From Senegalimassilia anaerobia JC110 (lineage in GTDB: Bacteria; Actinomycetota; Coriobacteriia; Coriobacteriales; Eggerthellaceae), in the NCBI RefSeq assembly GCF_000236865.1, contig NZ_HE611014.1, forward strand, positions 417,662 through 481,661: a DNA stretch of 64,000 bases, read 5' to 3'. The translations under genes were made by a program, and so were the position numbers. Position 1 is the first letter of the stretch. Each line of letters begins with the position of its first letter. Shown here one piece after another: positions 10,130 through 33,457 of the stretch. The notes beneath the pieces are model-generated. The model saw only the letters and a list, made by a program, of their open reading frames with translations, had not been told where the DNA came from and did no database searches.

Positions 10130-11368
10130 ATGGGATTGGGCCTTCGCAGCCTGTCGAAACGCGAGCGCAGCTGGGTTTTGTACGACGTGGGAAACTCCGC
10201 ATACGTCATGCTGGCGGCAACGCTCATCCCCATCTATTTCTCGGCCATCGCCGAACCTGGGTCGTCCGCCGTGGTGGCCTGGGGCTATGCGACTACGGTG
10301 GCCTCGCTGGCGCTTGCCCTGCTCATGCCGTTTCTGGGCAGCCTGGCCGATCTGAAGGGCAACAAGAAGAAGTTCCTTGCGGGAACCATCGGCACGGGCG
10401 CGGTGTCGCTCGCGGTCATGGGCGTGCCCGGCAACGCCATGGTGTTCCTGGCTATATACGTGTTCTCGTCGGTCATGCTCAACGCGTCGCTGGTGTTCTA
10501 CGATGCGTTCCTGGTCGACGCCACCGAGCAGGATCGCTACGACGAGGTTTCGTCCCAAGGCTATGCGTGGGGCTATATCGGATCTTGCATCCCGTTCATC
10601 GTGTGCCTGGTCATCGTGCTGTTCGGCAGCAGCTTCGGCATCGGGCAGCTTGACGGCATCCGCATCTCGTTCGTCATCACCGCGGCGTGGTGGCTGGTGT
10701 TCTCCGTGCCGGTGCTGCTCGACGTGCACCAGACGCACTTCAAGGCGCGCGAGGAGCACTTGTTCCGCCATACGCTCAAGGGCTTGGCGGGCACGTGCAA
10801 GAAGATCGCGCGCGACAAGCGCCTGCTCATGTTCATGCTGGCGTTCTTTTTCTACATCGACGGCGTGCACACCATCATCACCATGTCCACCAGCTACGGC
10901 ACCGACCTGGGCATCGACTCCACGCAGCTGGTGTTGGCGTTGCTGGTGACGCAGTTCGTGGCGTTCCCGTCCGCCATCGCCTACGGGCGTCTTGCCGGGC
11001 GCTTCGGCACCAAGCGCATGCTGCTGATCGCGGTGTTCGCGTACTTCTGCATCACGCTGTTCGCCGCGTTCTTCCTGCGCTCCGCCGCCGAGTTCTGGGT
11101 GCTGGCCGTGTGCGTGGGCCTGTTCCAGGGCGGCATCCAGGCGCTGTCGCGCAGCGAGTTCGGCAAGCTCATCCCGAAGGAGAACGCCAACGAGTACTAC
11201 GGCTTCTTCGATATCTTCGGCAAGTACGCCACCATCATGGGGACGCTGCTGGTAAGCGTGTTCACCCAGCTCACGGGCTCAAGCAGCTACGGCGTCCTTA
11301 GCGTGGCCGTGCTGTTCATCGTCGGCTTCGTCCTGCTTTGGAAGATGCCCGAGGAGGACGCCCGCTAG
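10130..11368 (+). CDS. UMF1/Vps-Atg22-type MFS transporter
   Basis: This 412-residue membrane protein has about 12 hydrophobic helices. It begins with the family-typical SWVLYDVGNSAYV segment of UMF1-type major facilitator proteins related to yeast Atg22. A conserved loop, QALSRSEFGKLIP, is near residue 340. The substrate is not predictable; Atg22 exports amino acids from the vacuole, but bacterial members are uncharacterised. The ATG at 10130 follows GCAAGGAGCAGCC, a good ribosome-binding site. It stands alone on the plus strand. Confidence 0.85.
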   Translation: MGLGLRSLSKRERSWVLYDVGNSAYVMLAATLIPIYFSAIAEPGSSAVVAWGYATTVASLALALLMPFLGSLADLKGNKKKFLAGTIGTGAVSLAVMGVPGNAMVFLAIYVFSSVMLNASLVFYDAFLVDATEQDRYDEVSSQGYAWGYIGSCIPFIVCLVIVLFGSSFGIGQLDGIRISFVITAAWWLVFSVPVLLDVHQTHFKAREEHLFRHTLKGLAGTCKKIARDKRLLMFMLAFFFYIDGVHTIITMSTSYGTDLGIDSTQLVLALLVTQFVAFPSAIAYGRLAGRFGTKRMLLIAVFAYFCITLFAAFFLRSAAEFWVLAVCVGLFQGGIQALSRSEFGKLIPKENANEYYGFFDIFGKYATIMGTLLVSVFTQLTGSSSYGVLSVAVLFIVGFVLLWKMPEEDAR

Positions 11369-16261: not shown

Positions 16262-16890
16262 TTCGCTTCTTTGCCGTTCAGGAAACGGGGTTCCCTGCAA
16301 AACTGGGACGGCTTAAATAAAGACTATGCCACTAGGGACTGGCTCCGGAACTCCTCCGGGGCCAGTCCCTTCGGTTTAACCTGGCGACACCGGGTGTTCC
16401 AATGGACGACATATGTGTCGAGGTTCGCCTTTAGGAGCTCGAGGTCGGGCGATGCCCTTCCCTGAAGGACTTGAAGTCTTTCTCCAACTCGCTCATATGC
16501 AGCCCTTCAGATCAACGCTTGCGATGCAATCCGAACCGAAGGCTGGCTAGACAGAACACTGATGGGGGCTGTACCATGCGGGTTGCTAGGTCCACGCGCT
16601 CGAGCCCATGCTCCTATTAGGTCATTGGCCGGCCTTGGTCGGGGCCGACGCGAGGCTCTTCGAGTTGAGGCCAGTCGCTGGAATCGACGGCAGTTCTTTA
16701 ATGGGCCGTCGCGTCGGCTCATGCGCATTTTCGCCGATAACCCTCGTTGATAGCGCGATTCCCATTATCAGTATCTTTCAAATGGCCCAACACCTGATTG
16801 GCGGCGCCGTTGTCGAGGCGGTTTCCCTTGCGCGATGTGCGCAAAGGGGCAGTCGGTCGCACGGTCGGCGGTGCTTTCGCTTCTGCGCTA
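16262..16890. other. Gene-free spacer after the IS3 remnant
   Basis: No open frame here has coding character. A strong stem-loop at 16334-16370 (arms AGGGACTGGC and GCCAGTCCCT) followed by TCGGTTT may be an IS terminal structure or terminator. The stretch is probably decayed mobile-element DNA. Confidence 0.4.
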
Positions 16891-25875: not shown

Positions 25876-27366
25876 ATGGGAAAGCCCGGAGCATTTTTGG
25901 AACACGGCCGCTGCGCCCACAGCCTGCGTCCCGTGCAAGAGCGAAGCCGCGATTTCGACGAGCTGTACGAGCCCGTGCCGGAGGAGCGGACGCGTGAGCA
26001 GGCAAGCCGCTGCATGGCATGCGGTGTGGCGTTTTGCCAGGCGGGAGCGCCGTTTGGGAAGGCAAGGCCTTCCGGCTGCCCGCTGCACAACCTGATCCCC
26101 GAGTGGAACGATCTGGTGTGGCGCGGCCAGTGGGAACAGGCTGCCGAGCGCTTGGCGCTGACCAGCCCCATGCCCGAGTTCACCAGCCGCGTGTGCCCGG
26201 CCTTGTGCGAGGCGGCGTGCAACCTTGCCCGCAACGACGAGGCCGAGACCATCCACGACAACGAGCGCGCAATCTCCGACTGGCAGTGGGCCCATGGCGG
26301 CCCGCGCCGCTTCGAGCCGGCGGTCCCGGACGCGCCGAGCGTCGTCGTGGTCGGTTCGGGTCCGGCGGGTCTGGTGGCCGCTTGGGATCTGGCGCGCCGC
26401 GGAGCGCGCGTGTGCGTGGTCGAGCGCCACGACCGCGCCGGCGGCCTGCTCATGTACGGCATCCCGAACATGAAGCTGGACAAATCGGTGGTGAAGCGCC
26501 GCACCGACCTGATGGCTGAGCTGGGTATCGAGTTCCGTCTGGGCGTCGACGCGGCCGATGCCGATGTGGCCGCGGGGCTGGTCGCGGAGTTCGACGCCGT
26601 GGTGGTTGCCGCGGGCGCCTGCAAGGCTCGCGGCGTGGGAGCGGAAGGCTTCGACGCCGGCGTTGCCGCGGGGGATGTGGTGTACGCGGTGGATTACCTG
26701 ACCGAGCAGACGCGCGCCTTGCTCGAGGGCCGCAAGCCGGCCATCAGCGCCGAGGGCAAGGATGTGGTGGTCATCGGCGGCGGCGATACGGGTAACGACT
26801 GCATGGGCACTGCGGTGCGCCAGGGCGCGCGCACGGTTCGCCAGCTGGAATATGGCCCGCGTGCGCCGAAGGAGCGCGCGGCGTCGAACCTGTGGCCTGA
26901 ATGGCCCAACGTCGCCAAGACGGACTACGGCCAGGAGGAAGCTATCGCGTTGCAGGGCGATGACCTGCGCGAATGGTGCGCCGATACGCAGAAGGTGCTG
27001 CTGGATGGCGCCGGGCATGTGCGCGGTCTGCAGGTGCGCTCGTTCGACTGGTCCGCTGGCAAGCCCGAGCCTGTGGAAGGCTCCGAGCGCGAGGTCGATG
27101 CGCAGCTGGTGCTGGTGGCCTGCGGTTTCGCGGGTCCGGAAGACGGCGTGTTCGATGCGTTCGGCGTGCCGTTGGCAACGCAGGGCCGTCCGCTTCCGGT
27201 GATGGCCGCCGGTGATTCGCATCGCGCCATGCGCGCCGCCGTGGGCAAGGACGACGCTGCCGTGTACGTTGCCGGCGATGCCCGCACGGGCAGCAGCCTG
27301 GTGGTCAACGCCATGGCCGACGCCCTTAAGTGCGCAGCCGAGGTAGCTGGCGACCTGGGGTTGTAG
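25876..27366 (+). CDS. gltD: Glutamate synthase small subunit
   Basis: This 496-residue flavoprotein feeds electrons from NAD(P)H to GltB. It has N-terminal cysteines for two 4Fe-4S clusters (CMACGVAFCQ, GCPLHNLIPEWND, CPALCEAACN), an FAD-binding VVVGSGPAGLVAA near residue 156, and an NAD(P)H-binding VVVIGGGDTGNDC near 296. It starts 3 bp after gltB. Its stop is 40 bp before a GC hairpin, then the left boundary repeat of the 27.4-33.0 kb island. Confidence 0.95.
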   Translation: MGKPGAFLEHGRCAHSLRPVQERSRDFDELYEPVPEERTREQASRCMACGVAFCQAGAPFGKARPSGCPLHNLIPEWNDLVWRGQWEQAAERLALTSPMPEFTSRVCPALCEAACNLARNDEAETIHDNERAISDWQWAHGGPRRFEPAVPDAPSVVVVGSGPAGLVAAWDLARRGARVCVVERHDRAGGLLMYGIPNMKLDKSVVKRRTDLMAELGIEFRLGVDAADADVAAGLVAEFDAVVVAAGACKARGVGAEGFDAGVAAGDVVYAVDYLTEQTRALLEGRKPAISAEGKDVVVIGGGDTGNDCMGTAVRQGARTVRQLEYGPRAPKERAASNLWPEWPNVAKTDYGQEEAIALQGDDLREWCADTQKVLLDGAGHVRGLQVRSFDWSAGKPEPVEGSEREVDAQLVLVACGFAGPEDGVFDAFGVPLATQGRPLPVMAAGDSHRAMRAAVGKDDAAVYVAGDARTGSSLVVNAMADALKCAAEVAGDLGL

Positions 27367-27443: not shown

Positions 27444-27612
27444 TGCCTAAGCTGTGGCGAAGTTAGCCGAATATCGGATGCATTATTGCGCTTCCCTGAT
27501 TCGTGCAATAGCATATTCAGCTACTGTTAATCACAACGAAATCGGAGTCGCATGTCTCGTCGCCAAGCCACCTCACGCATCCTCTTCATCTGCCACGGCA
27601 ACATCTGCAGGT
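27444..27612 (+). repeat. Left 169-bp boundary repeat of the genomic island
   Basis: This 169-bp segment matches 32798-32966 without gaps, with seven differences, all transitions. It consists of about 108 bp of upstream region and the first 20 codons of the phosphatase gene whose intact copy is at 32906. It marks the left edge of a 5.35-kb insertion. Confidence 0.93.
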
Positions 27613-27614
27613 GA
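27552..27614 (+). pseudogene. Truncated 5' end of the tyrosine phosphatase gene
   Basis: ATG 27552 opens a copy of the phosphatase gene that encodes MSRRQATSRILFICHGNICR, then runs into TGA at 27612, exactly where island DNA begins. It keeps the catalytic Cys and Arg of the P-loop but nothing else, so it cannot fold into an enzyme. Confidence 0.9.
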
Positions 27615-27845
27615 CGGAGAATCAGCAGGTCAATTGCGGTTTCGGGTCTTCTCTGAGTGAAATCTACACTTTTTTACGCCGGTGGAGTCCCACTAACGAC
27701 AAATCTTGAATTAATGCATATGGTCTCTCGTCGAATCATTTAGCTTGCCCATCGTTTGTTTCTCGAAAGACGCATGGAGAAATATATAATGATTTATACG
27801 TATACAATTATCACCCATGACAAAGAATTGAACGCGAGAGGTTAA
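27613..27845. promoter_or_regulatory. AT-rich leader of the island genes
   Basis: Base composition falls sharply here compared with the host. It contains TATAAT at 27785-27790 and a TATACGTATA palindrome nearby, both suitable for a promoter, but no clear -35 box at normal spacing. AGAGGT precedes the methyltransferase ATG. Read-through from the duplicated phosphatase promoter could also supply transcripts. Confidence 0.45.
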
Positions 27846-28700
27846 ATGTCGGATCATTCCCTAAATAGAGGCTTCAAACCGTTCTTGCGGTGGGCTGGCG
27901 GAAAGAACTGGCTAATAAAATACCTACCGGATTTGATCAAAGACCTTGATTTCAATAATTACCATGAACCGTTTTTCGGCGGTGGCTCTGTGTTCTTTGC
28001 TTTATCTCCAGATGAGGCAATCCTCTCCGACATCAACGAAGAGCTCATTAATGCATACGTGGAAGTTCGTGATAACGTTGAGAGCGTAATCGAGATTATT
28101 GACGGATGGGACGTAAATGAGGATCAGTATTACGCCATTCGGTCGGAAGAACCAGATGATGCGATACAAAGAGCTGCCCGATTTATTTATCTGAACAGAA
28201 CATCGTTCAATGGCATTTATCGAGTCAACCGTAAAGGTCAATATAACGTGCCTTACGGGAAAAATGACGACTATAGATTTGATTTTCAACGAATTCGTCA
28301 TGCGAGTGAGGCCCTTCAGGGGGCAAAGCTATTCACGCGTTCCTTTGAGGAGTCGCTAAAGGATGTAAAAGCCAGAGATCTTGTATTTCTCGATCCGCCA
28401 TATACGGTTGCGCACAACAACAATGGCTTTATCGAATACAACAAAAAGCTCTTCTCTCTCGAAGATCAATTTAAATTGAAGAATTGTATCGATGTTCTTT
28501 CTGGGCTCGGCGCCTTCTATATTCTTACGAACGCCCATCATGAAGTAATTGATGGCTTGTTTTCTCCCGGCAGTATCAAACTGGCTGTTTCTCGAAGCAG
28601 CACTTTAGGCGGTCGTAATGCTCGTCGAGGGAACACTCAGGAATACATATTTACTAATATTCCTCAAGCGAGGATAGGGGATATCGATGGACTGGCTTAG
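27846..28700 (+). CDS. D12-class (Dam-like) DNA adenine-N6 methyltransferase
   Basis: The 284-residue protein is a D12-family adenine methyltransferase related to Dam and DpnM. Motifs in order are RWAGGK (residues 15-20), the SAM-binding EPFFGGGS (41-48) and the catalytic DPPY (183-186). The length is normal for the family. Target sequence cannot be deduced. The gene is AT-rich with host-atypical codons, so it was acquired. Its stop overlaps by 14 bp the start of the nuclease-DGQHR gene, indicating translational coupling. In that setting it probably protects host DNA, or marks it for the partner. Confidence 0.92.
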   Translation: MSDHSLNRGFKPFLRWAGGKNWLIKYLPDLIKDLDFNNYHEPFFGGGSVFFALSPDEAILSDINEELINAYVEVRDNVESVIEIIDGWDVNEDQYYAIRSEEPDDAIQRAARFIYLNRTSFNGIYRVNRKGQYNVPYGKNDDYRFDFQRIRHASEALQGAKLFTRSFEESLKDVKARDLVFLDPPYTVAHNNNGFIEYNKKLFSLEDQFKLKNCIDVLSGLGAFYILTNAHHEVIDGLFSPGSIKLAVSRSSTLGGRNARRGNTQEYIFTNIPQARIGDIDGLA

Positions 28701-30978
28701 TGAAATCGTCTCTGGGAAAGAGCTGGATTCCGCCAAACGCGAACGGACAAAGGACTATGTTTTTACAACACAGGTCGAGGAAGCTCAAGCTCGATATGAG
28801 TCGGAGGGCTGGGAATTTGACCGAACGCTCGCAAGAAGGCGAGTAAAACTAAAAAAGAAAAAACCCGCTGATGAGATCTTTGAGAATCGTGTTTGGACCA
28901 TGCTGTATAAGCTTGGCTTTTCTCACATGAACAGAGACAGATTGTTTTCTGTTGACTATTCCCAAAACGGAAGATCTTCAAGCAAGCAGATTGATGTCCT
29001 TGCAGCGGATAACGAAATCCTTCTGTTAATCGAGTGTAAATGCGCAAACAGACCAGGTACTCAGAGTAACTTTAAGACCGATATCGAAGCAATCGCTGAT
29101 TACAGGCGACATGTGTTTAACCAGCTTAAGCAAAAATTTCCAACCCAGAAAATGGTTTGTGTATTCGCAACAAGCAATTATGAGCTAGGTGACAAGAACA
29201 AGGACTTGCTTGCAGCAAAAAACATCAAGCATTTTGATGAAACCGCCATCGAATATTATGAGGCTCTTGGGAAAACGTTAGGAAAGGCAGCGAGATATCA
29301 GCTGCTAGGTAACCTATTCGCTAATCAAGAGATAACCGGGATGGATACAAGGGTTGCAGCAATCAAAGGGAAAATGGGAGGGCGTACTTACTACTCGTTT
29401 TCGATTGAGCCCTCCAAGCTTCTTAAGATGTCATACATCCTCCATCGAAATAGCGCTCAACCTGATGAAGTCTTGCCTACATATCAAAGGCTTATCAAGA
29501 AGGGACGCCTGAAGGATATTCAAAAATTCGTTAACGACGGAGGTTTTTTTCCGAACTCCATCATTGTCAATGTCGCAAATGAATCGCCGCGTTTTGAGCA
29601 AGCGCCGAAAAAGAATCAACCAAACGGCTCTGATTCGAGAATCGGAATATTGGAGCTTCCTAAGAAATATCGATCTATTTACGTTATCGATGGCCAGCAT
29701 AGGCTTTACGGATATGCAGATAGCGATCATGCTGAATCAGACATTATTCCTGTTGTTGCTTTCTACGATATGGATAATACTGAGCAAATAAAGATGTTTA
29801 TGGACATCAATGAAAAGCAGAAAGCCGTTCCTCAGACATTGCGGACTACGCTAAATGCTGATTTGCTTTGGGATGCAGAGGATGTTTCCGATAGGCAAAA
29901 AGCACTGCGCTCACGAATTGCGCAAGACCTTGGAGAAATTAAACGTTCTCCATTATACGATAGAGTCATTGTTGGAGAAAATACAAAAGGGCCCCATCGT
30001 TCGATAACACTTCCGTTTATTGACAACGCTATTGATAAAGCTGGATATCTGGGTAAATACCAAAAAGGGTCCATGCTCCAAGATGGCCTTTTCGAATACG
30101 GAAATATCGACATGTCTTACAAGAGAATTTTCAATTATTTGATTGGTTGCCTGGCGTATGTAAGAGACGCTAGCCCTGATGAATGGGAGCGCTCGAACAA
30201 GGAAGGGGCCGTATTCACTGTTAATGTAGGCATATATGCCCTCATTCGTATCTGCGCGGACATCCTGCAGCATCTTCGCGATTCCAATGCAATCGATATT
30301 AGGAATACCGAAATAGATGATTTGGTCGAGGATGCATCATTTTATTTGTTGCCATTGGTGAATCATATAGAACATCTTGATTGCGAACAGCGGGATTCTT
30401 TTACAAAAAAATATGGAGGCAATGCTACCAAGGACTGCCATTTCAAATTCAGGAAAATCGTGCATGATGCTCATGAAGAATTTGCGCCTGAGGGGCTAAG
30501 CGACTGGATAAGAGACAATAGCATGCAATACAACGAAGATTCGATTTCGAAATTGACCGCAATTGAAGAACGCATCGCTAACGATTTTGAGAAGCTCCTG
30601 AGCCAGGAATACGGCACCGATTGGTTGCGTATCGGTGTCGACAAGCCAGTTTTTAGCGCGCTTAACAAACGTGCGTCTGATCGGGAATTCGACACGGGAG
30701 TTAAACAAGAGCCATGGCGTGAGGTGACGCTGGAGGAATGTCGCAAAGTTGCAACATGGTCTCAGAATTGGAGCAGGCTGTTTAAGATCTATTTCGAGCG
30801 ACTTATTGGTGACGGAAAGGCGCATAACAAGACCGATTCTACTGAATGGATGTCGAACCTGAGTACAGTAAGAAAGCAGCTGCTTACCACGAAAAACTAT
30901 AGCGTGAGCCATGATCAACATGAGCTTATATGCGACTACTATGACAAGCTTCAGTCATTGGACATCATGGCTCTGTAG
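28687..30978 (+). CDS. PD-(D/E)XK nuclease-like and DGQHR-domain fusion protein
   Basis: This 763-residue protein has two recognisable parts. Residues about 60-180 look like a PD-(D/E)XK endonuclease core: Asp103 in QIDVLAAD and Glu116-x-Lys118 in LLLIECKC, preceded by a charged basic segment (LARRRVKLKKKK). Residues about 230-400 carry a DGQHR domain, with the signature at 335-339 in YVIDGQHRLYG and a following MFMDINEKQKAV. That domain is known from DndB of DNA phosphorothioation and DpdB of 7-deazaguanine DNA modification. The C-terminal 350 residues are helical and unassigned. With the overlapping adenine methyltransferase it suggests a two-gene modification/restriction system. The nuclease assignment rests on motif spacing only, and the function is inferred. 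Confidence 0.78.
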   Translation: MDWLSEIVSGKELDSAKRERTKDYVFTTQVEEAQARYESEGWEFDRTLARRRVKLKKKKPADEIFENRVWTMLYKLGFSHMNRDRLFSVDYSQNGRSSSKQIDVLAADNEILLLIECKCANRPGTQSNFKTDIEAIADYRRHVFNQLKQKFPTQKMVCVFATSNYELGDKNKDLLAAKNIKHFDETAIEYYEALGKTLGKAARYQLLGNLFANQEITGMDTRVAAIKGKMGGRTYYSFSIEPSKLLKMSYILHRNSAQPDEVLPTYQRLIKKGRLKDIQKFVNDGGFFPNSIIVNVANESPRFEQAPKKNQPNGSDSRIGILELPKKYRSIYVIDGQHRLYGYADSDHAESDIIPVVAFYDMDNTEQIKMFMDINEKQKAVPQTLRTTLNADLLWDAEDVSDRQKALRSRIAQDLGEIKRSPLYDRVIVGENTKGPHRSITLPFIDNAIDKAGYLGKYQKGSMLQDGLFEYGNIDMSYKRIFNYLIGCLAYVRDASPDEWERSNKEGAVFTVNVGIYALIRICADILQHLRDSNAIDIRNTEIDDLVEDASFYLLPLVNHIEHLDCEQRDSFTKKYGGNATKDCHFKFRKIVHDAHEEFAPEGLSDWIRDNSMQYNEDSISKLTAIEERIANDFEKLLSQEYGTDWLRIGVDKPVFSALNKRASDREFDTGVKQEPWREVTLEECRKVATWSQNWSRLFKIYFERLIGDGKAHNKTDSTEWMSNLSTVRKQLLTTKNYSVSHDQHELICDYYDKLQSLDIMAL

Positions 30979-31029
30979 GTGAAGCTTCGTTTTCGCTTCC
31001 AGGGACTAGGGACATGCGTCGTAGAGGAT

Positions 31030-31069
31030 AAATCGGGCGGAGCCTTGCGGCCTCGCCTGATTTGCGTTT
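31030..31069 (+). terminator. Putative terminator after the nuclease-DGQHR gene
   Basis: AAATCGGGCG (31030-31039) and CGCCTGATTT (31054-31063) form a stem with one G-T pair, followed by GCGTTT. It lies 52 bp after the stop and probably ends the two-gene island transcript. Confidence 0.55.
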
Positions 31070-31220
31070 AGACCAGCTCGCGACTCATCGCGTTGATGCG
31101 GGGGTGTTTTATGTCAAGCAGGCAATGAACAAAGGGGGATGCTGACAAAATTCCGTACCAACTAGGTGTCAGGGAGGTGGAGTGGGCATGATGAACTGGA
31201 CACCAGGTTAAGAGCGAAAG

Positions 31221-31511
31221 GTGTTCAAGACGACCCAAAGAAGAAAGCGATACGACAGGCAGTTTAAGGTCTCGGCGGCAAAGGTGGTCCTGTCCGGGGA
31301 GATGACGGTCAAAGACCTATCGGAGGAGCTCGGCACAAAGGACTCGACGCTGAGAAGATGGGCCCGCGAATATGAGGAGATGGGAGACGACGCGTTCCCT
31401 GGAAACGGCTCTCCGAAGATCGACAAGGACTACGAGATCGCGAAGCTCAAGAAGAAGGTCGAGGAGCTCGAGCGCGAGAACGAGATGCTAAAAAACTCCG
31501 GGCTTTCTTGA
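31221..31511 (+). CDS. IS3-family transposase OrfA
   Basis: The 96-residue protein has the N-terminal helix-turn-helix of IS3 OrfA proteins (RRKRYDRQFKVSAAKVVLSG, then KDLSEELGTKDSTLRRWA) and a C-terminal leucine-zipper coiled coil (KLKKKVEELERENEMLKN). It starts with GTG at 31221. It appears intact and could bind the element's ends, although the partner OrfB is dead. Normally OrfA-OrfB is made by programmed -1 frameshifting. Confidence 0.85.
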   Translation: MFKTTQRRKRYDRQFKVSAAKVVLSGEMTVKDLSEELGTKDSTLRRWAREYEEMGDDAFPGNGSPKIDKDYEIAKLKKKVEELERENEMLKNSGLS

Positions 31512-31519
31512 GTCAAGAC

Positions 31520-32355
31520 CATGCGCGAGGTTCGGGTTCCTCGAAGAGCATAGGGGCGAGATCGGCCCCATCAAGAAGGCATGCGGGCTGATGAAGGTCT
31601 CGAATCCGGTTTCTACGAGTATCTCTCCCGGAAGAAATCAAACGCCCAGATAGAGCGAGCGGCACAAGGGCCGCTACGGCTGCCGGCGCATCGACCGCGA
31701 ACTGCGAAAAAGCGGCATCGCCGTGAGCGAGAAGCGCGTGCTCCATATCATGCAGAAGCTCGGGCTCGCCGGAAGGGGCGCGGCCCGAAAACGCCGCATC
31801 CAGAAGAAGGTCGAGCCGGGAGACCCTCGGCTGAACCTGGCAGAGCGCGCTTTCTCCGCTGGCGGGCGCGACAGGCTTCGGGCGGGCGGCATCGCCCACA
31901 TGCCCGCAAGAGAAGGGCGGCTCTATCTCGCAGCCGCGATAGACGCCTTCTCCCGCAAGGTCGTGGGCTGGTCGATGTCCGGGCGCATCGCCGAGAAGGT
32001 CGCGATCGACGCGATAGGGCAGGCGGTTGGCAGGGAGGGTCCGCCAGACGACGGCGGCCTCGTCTTCCATGACGACCAAGGCGCGCAGCACGCCTCCCGT
32101 TCCTTCCAGCGATGCCTGGACTCGCATGGCATAGCCCAGTCGGCATCAAGGCCCGGCACGCCGCCGGGCAACGCGGTGGCCGAGCCGTTCTTCAAGACGC
32201 TGAAAAGGGAATTGGCGGAAGAGAGGGGTTATGGGACGAGGGACGAGGCCGAGCAGGACATCTTCAAGCACATAGAGCCCTGTTGCAATATGGTGCGCAT
32301 ACATTCCGCCTTGGGCTACATGTCTCCAGTGGAATACGAGCGGCAATACGCTTGA
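31520..32355 (+). pseudogene. IS3-family transposase OrfB, frameshifted and inactive
   Basis: Similarity to IS3 OrfB runs through three frames: EEHRGEIGPIKKACGLMKVS, then GFYEYLSRKKSNAQIE, then from about 31660 HKGRYGCRRIDRELRKSG, which stays open to 32355. The catalytic core keeps the second Asp (FHDDQGAQ) and the Glu (NAVAEPFFKTLKRE). The first Asp, expected in a D-I-T type motif, reads GGIAHMP near 31886. Two frameshifts plus the missing Asp make it inactive. Confidence 0.8.
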
Positions 32356-32405
32356 GGATCCTTAAAAGAAAGTCCAGTTTATCCTTCCCACTCCAAGGAC
32401 GTCAC

Positions 32406-32740
32406 ATGTATTCGCACGAGGACAAGATGGGGGCGAACGAGCTCTACCTTAGATACCACCGGAGCACGGCGGCGGTCATAAACGAGCTCGGCTATCCTAA
32501 CTGCCAAACCCTCAGGCTGTGGTACATGGAGCTCGAGGAAAACGGGGGCTTGAGCCGAGGGTGCCACCAGCGCTATGATGATCTCCGGAAGAAAGCCGTT
32601 GACGACCGCTTCTTCGATCGCGGGGCAATGCTTCGCCCGCGCCGTCCGCCATCTCGGATATCCGAAATCCAAGGAATCGCTCGGAGAGATGAGTCCGCTG
32701 CGGTACAGGTGGTCGCTCAATCCAGCGGCATGAGCGCTTT
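32406..32740 (+). pseudogene. Second IS-element OrfA remnant (IS150 type)
   Basis: From ATG 32406 the frame reads MYSHEDKMGANELYLRYH, then INELGYPNCQTLRLWYMELE, typical of the repeated helix-turn-helix OrfA of IS150-like elements. After about residue 60 the similarity moves to another frame (CFARAVRHLGYPKSKESLGE), so it is frameshifted, and no OrfB follows. It abuts the right boundary repeat. Confidence 0.7.
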
Positions 32741-32797
32741 TGTATGGAAAACGTCAGCATCCCCCCCAATGCCGGGGTCATGGTTGACGGGTACAGA

Positions 32798-32966
32798 TGC
32801 CTAAGCTGTGACGAAGTTAGCCGAATATTGGATGCATTATTGCGCTTCCTTGATTCGTGCAATAGCATATTCAGCTACTGCTAATCACAACGAAATCGGA
32901 GTCGCATGTCTCGTCGCCAAGCTATCTCACGCATCCTCTTCATTTGCCACGGCAACATCTGCAGGT
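32798..32966 (+). repeat. Right 169-bp boundary repeat of the genomic island
   Basis: This is the partner of 27444-27612 (162 of 169 positions identical by manual alignment). Here the repeat runs on into the complete phosphatase gene, so this copy supplies the functional promoter and 5' end. Confidence 0.93.
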
Positions 32967-33457
32967 CGACCATGGCCCAGTTCGTGATGCAGGACCTGGT
33001 GAACAAGGCAGGGCTGGCCGACGTTCTGCGCGTCGATTCCGCCGCCACCACCAACGATGAAATCGGGCATCCGCCGCATCATGGCACGGTCGACAAGCTC
33101 AAGCAGGTGGGCGTGCCGGTGCTGCCGCATCGCGCCCGCAAGGTCCGCGCCGACGAGTACGACGAGTGGGACCTGTTCGTGTATATGGATGACGAGAACG
33201 AGCGCCATCTGAGTCGCATCTTCGGAAGCGACCCGGAGGCGAAGTGCGTGCGTCTGCTCGCGTTCGCGCCCGGTGCGGGGCTGGTCGGCGAGGACGGGAA
33301 GGTCTTGCCCGACGCGCAGGACGCCCATGCGATCGCGCAAGCCGGCGCGAATGCCGCCGACGTGGCCGATCCCTGGTTCACCGGCAACTTCGACGACACC
33401 TACCGCGACGTGTTGGCCGGCTGCAAAGGCCTTCTGACCTGGTGCCGGGCGCAATAG
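32906..33457 (+). CDS. Low-molecular-weight protein tyrosine phosphatase
   Basis: The 183-residue protein has the complete signature: P-loop CHGNICRS with catalytic Cys14 and Arg20, and the general-acid loop DPWFTGNFDDTY near the C-terminus. Such enzymes dephosphorylate protein tyrosine, often in exopolysaccharide control; some relatives reduce arsenate. It is longer than the usual 150-160 residues because of an insert around residues 110-145. Its first 20 codons and upstream region are duplicated at 27444-27612, making it the apparent insertion target of the island. A strong hairpin follows. Confidence 0.92.
   Translation: MSRRQAISRILFICHGNICRSTMAQFVMQDLVNKAGLADVLRVDSAATTNDEIGHPPHHGTVDKLKQVGVPVLPHRARKVRADEYDEWDLFVYMDDENERHLSRIFGSDPEAKCVRLLAFAPGAGLVGEDGKVLPDAQDAHAIAQAGANAADVADPWFTGNFDDTYRDVLAGCKGLLTWCRAQ

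Follow-up and report, generated by a model that had tools for sequence, protein, structure and literature searches.

The island between two long direct repeats in the window, the 64,000-nucleotide stretch of Senegalimassilia anaerobia JC110 that we analysed (G000:C2:417662-481661), is probably an integrase-less, att-flanked (CIME-like) derivative of an element that targets the P-loop codons (CHGNIC) of a low molecular weight (LMW) tyrosine phosphatase gene. The mechanism is known in kind; the novelty appears to lie in the site, in the elements that use it and in the lack of an integrase in this island.

Alignment confirmed the ungapped 169-bp repeats with seven differences reported by the initial annotation: positions 27444-27612 and 32798-32966, both on the forward strand, are direct repeats with 96% identity, and all seven substitutions are transitions. 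A whole-genome search found these two copies and none besides in the 2.4-Mb genome, and a chance repeat is ruled out by the length, the identity and the two copies. As had also been described, each copy contains the upstream region and the phosphatase ATG (27552 on the left, 32906 on the right) with 20 codons, MSRRQA[T/I]SRILFICHGNICR. The left (attL-like) copy is a truncated phosphatase start whose TGA spans the junction (27612-27614), and the right (attR-like) copy reads on into the intact 183-aa LMWPc phosphatase, the target gene (32906-33457, forward strand; PF01451, 5.7e-27). The P-loop core, the portion common to other genomes, lies at 27576-27612 in the left copy and at 32930-32966 in the right copy, both forward. 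Inspection of the island ends by eye revealed no arm-type repeats.

We searched for the repeat in 396 genomes of the class and found matches in 132, nearly all within about positions 131-169 of the repeat. Matches extending back to positions 119-127 occurred in three genomes of this sample, G219 had a separate match at positions 50-71, and only the window genome had a full-length match. Thus the first 132 bp matched no class genome except for small extensions and one unrelated stretch, and viral contigs did not contain the 169-bp repeat.

We took the upstream stretches of 100 class phosphatase loci, excluded two in which no P-loop was shown (L173 and L183), and retained 98 with a recognisable P-loop; in 95 of these, the sequence ahead of the P-loop extended for 1.5 kb or more. 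At 2 of the 98 loci (G102 and, as a fragment, G106), a Tn916-type integrase oriented like the phosphatase lies upstream by about 180-230 bp, as judged with a model built from the integrases of G000-G002 that highly divergent recombinases, including serine integrases, could escape; this count is one of the points against the CIME-like reading. In genome G005 a different integrase, oriented the opposite way, precedes the phosphatase, and in G017 an integrase is 11.6 kb away.

We found a complete element of about 8.75 kb at the same codons in G102, which belongs to the same family and another genus. Its far end, 8.75 kb upstream of the intact gene, is a truncated native-like start, VHRIMFVCHGNICK followed by a stop (ending CHGNICK and stop), that resembles the HRIMF starts of its genus; then come FtsK and Rep genes, the integrase, which carries PF02920 (the DNA-binding domain of Tn916 Int), and next to it a new start, MIKIMFVCHGNICRS, with the intact gene. 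The same type of integrase is upstream in 5 of 18 loci fetched from genome_contigs for the phosphatase (L008, a fragment, L011, L014, L020 and L022). L014 also has a truncated far-end start (MIKILSVCHG and onward to a stop), and no far-end copy was found in the other four of these five Clostridia loci.

In G005 (L134, G005:C5:95639-113300), where the integrase near the phosphatase runs in the reverse direction, a 24-bp repeat, ACATTTGGTAGATGAATTC[C/T]GCCA, occurs near 10225 and near 16846, one copy about 181 bp ahead of the P-loop and the second 6.6 kb further up. This is probably an element at the phosphatase gene with an att site other than the P-loop codons.

Viral and phage integrases also use the phosphatase start. 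Searching viral_contigs with a profile of five integrases gave 76 loci; together with phage records, 63 integrases were usable, of which 46 had at least 400 nt downstream. Among these 46 Tn916-type integrases, not selected for the site, 12 had a phosphatase start (F[IV]CHGNI) within 600 nt downstream, a count made with a looser motif chosen after the junctions were known; a strict motif gave 5 of the 63 loci within 1.5 kb. When near-copies are merged, the 12 represent 10 distinct integrase proteins and the 46 represent 40. Three of the 12 run on into the gene (L250, L255 and L330) and nine do not. L250, whose contig also encodes a terminase, shares its sequence with L248/L249 as far as CACGGCAA; from there L250 runs into the gene and L248/L249 into element sequence, so that the split falls inside CACGGCAA...TG, at the same codons. 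We read L250 as the attR of a prophage contig and L248/L249 as an attP-like junction; the latter two are not closed circles, and their junction may derive from an excised form or a tandem array. L255 has a truncated far-end start, too.

In Clostridia and Coriobacteriia, the site thus serves Tn916-type integrases of both phages and small elements, and the relatives there include the small FtsK/Rep element and prophages. The integrases match the Tn1549 and Tn916 Int structures (PDB 1b69, 6emz). On an integrase tree, for which a 3-kb search distance was used so that its labels include a few rows absent from the 600-nt survey, the phosphatase-site label requires 11 changes, of which starred branches force 8, and 1 of 500 shuffles was as low. 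The phosphatase-site integrases thus appear clustered and not as one clade, and long branches make parts of the tree unsure.

These independent integrase-bearing elements support the att-site logic at the 5' end of a protein gene that the initial annotation had proposed, and also its junction at the P-loop codons: the 3' break of the window repeat lies within about 10 bp of the breaks in G102, L014, L255 and L248/L250, and the left window copy ends in a stop, as does the far-end start of G102. Both window copies terminate at codons that related elements use, and they may represent a retained attL and attR. What sets the window apart, and is another point against the CIME-like reading, is the 169-bp match in place of the short core of the relatives, since the two copies in G102, L014 and L255 match over about 20-31 bp only; the 169-bp match therefore needs an extra history. 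A further such point is the window start MSRRQAIS, which does not resemble the MIKI starts found in known elements. The lack of recognised arm-type repeats, of an integrase or its relic in the island, of an evident integrase of this subfamily elsewhere in the genome, and of far-end copies at four of the five Clostridia loci also counts against it.

Between the repeats, the AT-rich genes that had been noted were borne out: G+C is 43% across 27613-31000 compared with about 65% in the flanks. The cargo consists of a Dam-family D12 adenine methyltransferase (27846-28700, forward; PF02086 1e-47, TIGR00571, nearest structure the DpnII methylase 2dpm) and a 763-aa DGQHR-domain protein (28687-30978, forward; TIGR03187 4e-52, PF14072), whose N-terminal region looks nuclease-like from a motif read by eye. 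In the class sample of 396 genomes, four others encode a DGQHR protein (G057, G198, G150 and G070), and in each of them a Dam-type methyltransferase gene adjoins the DGQHR gene; counting the window (27846-30978; the others are L075-L078), the two are neighbours, in either order, in 5 of 5. A DGQHR relative on two plasmids that we inspected has different neighbours. Comparison with solved structures gave no match to the DGQHR protein, no relative was confirmed in viral contigs, and phage records gave four partial matches with less than 60% identity. A restriction-modification-like function for the Dam-type and DGQHR genes is a reasonable guess, and the island probably carries a restriction-type defence pair.

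The island contains no tyrosine or serine integrase recognisable with Pfam/NCBIfam, no integrase relic by tblastn with about 25 integrases, and no Rep or FtsK relic that we could find. Hence, the claim that neither integrase nor recombinase is present holds for the integrase and needs correction for the recombinase, as 31221-32355 contains a recombinase-type gene, a broken transposase of the IS3 type that has an rve domain. This transposase (frames 31221-31511 and 31723-32355) belongs to an IS3-family element (31178-32395, forward; HTH_Tnp_1, rve, transpos_IS3) with terminal inverted repeats at 31178-31201 and 32372-32395. It is nested in a decayed outer insertion sequence, whose left end (GGGGGATGCTGAC, 31134-31146, forward) is an inverted match to 32753-32765 and whose right part (32388-32789, forward) was recognised by end homology to relics in G000 and G001. 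Short relics like this end occur at G000:C3:69450-69495, G000:C4:120133-120192 and G001:C1:2658912-2658946. In the window, the end homology runs to 32789, eight bases short of the right repeat copy.

These remnants occupy the position held by the integrase in intact relatives. Presumably the integrase was lost through an insertion sequence; from the same analysis, the repeat probably begins on its left side only where the remnants truncated the right copy. A composite transposon was rejected, as the remnants are at the right end only and do not flank both sides.

We compared the window with two genomes of the same genus, G001 and G002. In these, gltBD and the phosphatase are present and the 169-bp repeat is missing; the left chromosomal flank, a gltD-like gene in the window (25876-27366, forward; Pfam Fer4_20 and Pyr_redox_2), is common to them by alignment, and homology restarts at repeat position 133, at the P-loop codons (in the right-copy core for G001). 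The initial annotation had suggested searching this interval in relatives for empty sites and other cargo. The same-genus genomes are without the repeat and have there a block in which two genes look like ABC transporters and one like AraC, as judged from the sequence itself, in an interval of 6.06 kb in G001 and 12.3 kb in G002 with 84.6% identity over 3.6 kb. Nothing in the window genome matches this block above 72% except short pieces. Relocation of the block within the window genome was considered and rejected, because we read the best match, at 72% compared with 84.6% between G001 and G002, as paralogues.

The phosphatase begins MYRILF in G001 and G002 and MSRRQA[T/I]SRILF in both window copies. 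The swap of the 5' end, with the old end left at the far side, is clear in G102, whereas the window copies both differ from the ancestral start. Hence, the island does not look like one clean insertion. Because both 169-bp copies carry the non-ancestral start, we favour a history in which two related elements inserted one after the other and the first of them, like the ancestral ABC-ABC-AraC block, was later deleted; this is the likeliest history, at about an even chance of being correct.

A single insertion is possible but doubtful. It would make the left copy the species' own start, with an element bearing a long, near-identical imitation inserted once and the loss of the ABC-AraC block unrelated. 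It has a precedent in prophage PhiM247, for which the published account gives an att pair of 138 bp that differs by 15 changes and takes in 96 nt from the 5' end of msrA (PMC10763512), and MSRRQAIS is closer to host-type starts than to the MIKI starts of the elements. However, the stretch shared within the same integrase group is short, MYRILF is found in both G001 and G002, and the first 132 bp are essentially unmatched in the 396 class genomes. An origin that was not site-specific, by duplication or by a single homologous crossover with a circle bearing the phosphatase start, with the insertion sequences arriving later, is improbable: it would account for the long match, which a homologous crossover is expected to give, for the absent integrase and for the insertion-sequence remnants beside the right copy, but not for a 3' break so close to those of the integrase-bearing elements or for a left-copy stop like that of G102, and the insertion sequences are on one side of the island only.

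Under the preferred reading, a CIME-like derivative, the ancestral element would have entered the CHGNIC codons at the phosphatase 5' end by site-specific recombination. The sequences of its intact relatives show a Tn916-type tyrosine integrase beside the right end. They also show that each element brings an upstream region, an ATG and P-loop codons of its own; insertion thereby replaces the gene start with that of the element and leaves the old start, soon stopped, at the far end. In the window, the integrase end would have been lost where the decayed insertion-sequence pair adjoins the right copy, and the Dam methyltransferase and the DGQHR protein would have been left behind as cargo.

Several known systems resemble the window island in part. 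Islands and prophages specific for dusA, as far as the available text describes them (PMC4482086), substitute the 5' end of their target gene. As proposed here, they insert into the 5' end of a conserved protein gene, supply a new 5' end, leave the old end at the far side and have short imperfect direct repeats; they differ in target gene and integrase family, and the window island, unlike them, encodes no integrase of its own and has a far longer repeat (PMC4482086). In the sections available of a review, a CIME (cis-mobilizable element) is an element without integration genes that retains attL and attR, and decay followed by further insertion in attR is described (PMC5704250). The window island likewise has att-like ends and no integration genes by Pfam/NCBIfam/tblastn, their former presence being presumed; CIMEs have a conjugative or mobilizable origin and move in cis, both of which would be conjecture for the window island.

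The relatives at the site share PF02920 with Tn916/Tn1549-type integrases and match Tn1549 Int, whereas the window is without an integrase. Tn916 itself can insert at many sites, according to the portion of the source available (PMC11838328), in contrast to the one gene start used by the relatives here. PhiM247 at msrA is like the window in its long imperfect att repeat that includes a protein-gene 5' end and differs in gene, host and being an intact, excising prophage, again from the accessible text (PMC10763512).

The catalytic-loop codons of the LMW tyrosine phosphatase are a little-described integration site for Tn916-type integrases; we identified no description of it in the accessible parts of the literature covered, which included few subscription journals. 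The site is a marker for finding such elements, it raises the question of how an exchange of promoter and start affects the phosphatase, and it shows how a restriction-like gene pair can end stranded in the chromosome. More broadly, it is conceivable, though rather unlikely, that in Actinobacteria and Firmicutes the Tn916-type integrases encoded by phages and small elements repeatedly came to target these codons, each element bringing a spare start. If so, lysogeny or island gain would alter the expression and the N-terminus of the phosphatase, and stranded defence islands like that of the window would be by-products that retain the swapped start.

Movement of the window island would require an integrase of the same type acting from outside. 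The window genome has five PF00589 loci, none of them evidently of the G102 integrase subfamily. A helper in the same genome was considered and rejected: only L091 matched the G102 integrase (phmmer, E<1e-10; 7.6e-11), which we took as generic tyrosine-recombinase similarity. In G001, three adjacent tyrosine-recombinase genes occur in two near-identical copies with equal scores (G001:C1:436771-439823 and 1146032-1149084), an arrangement reminiscent of recombinase-in-trio elements.
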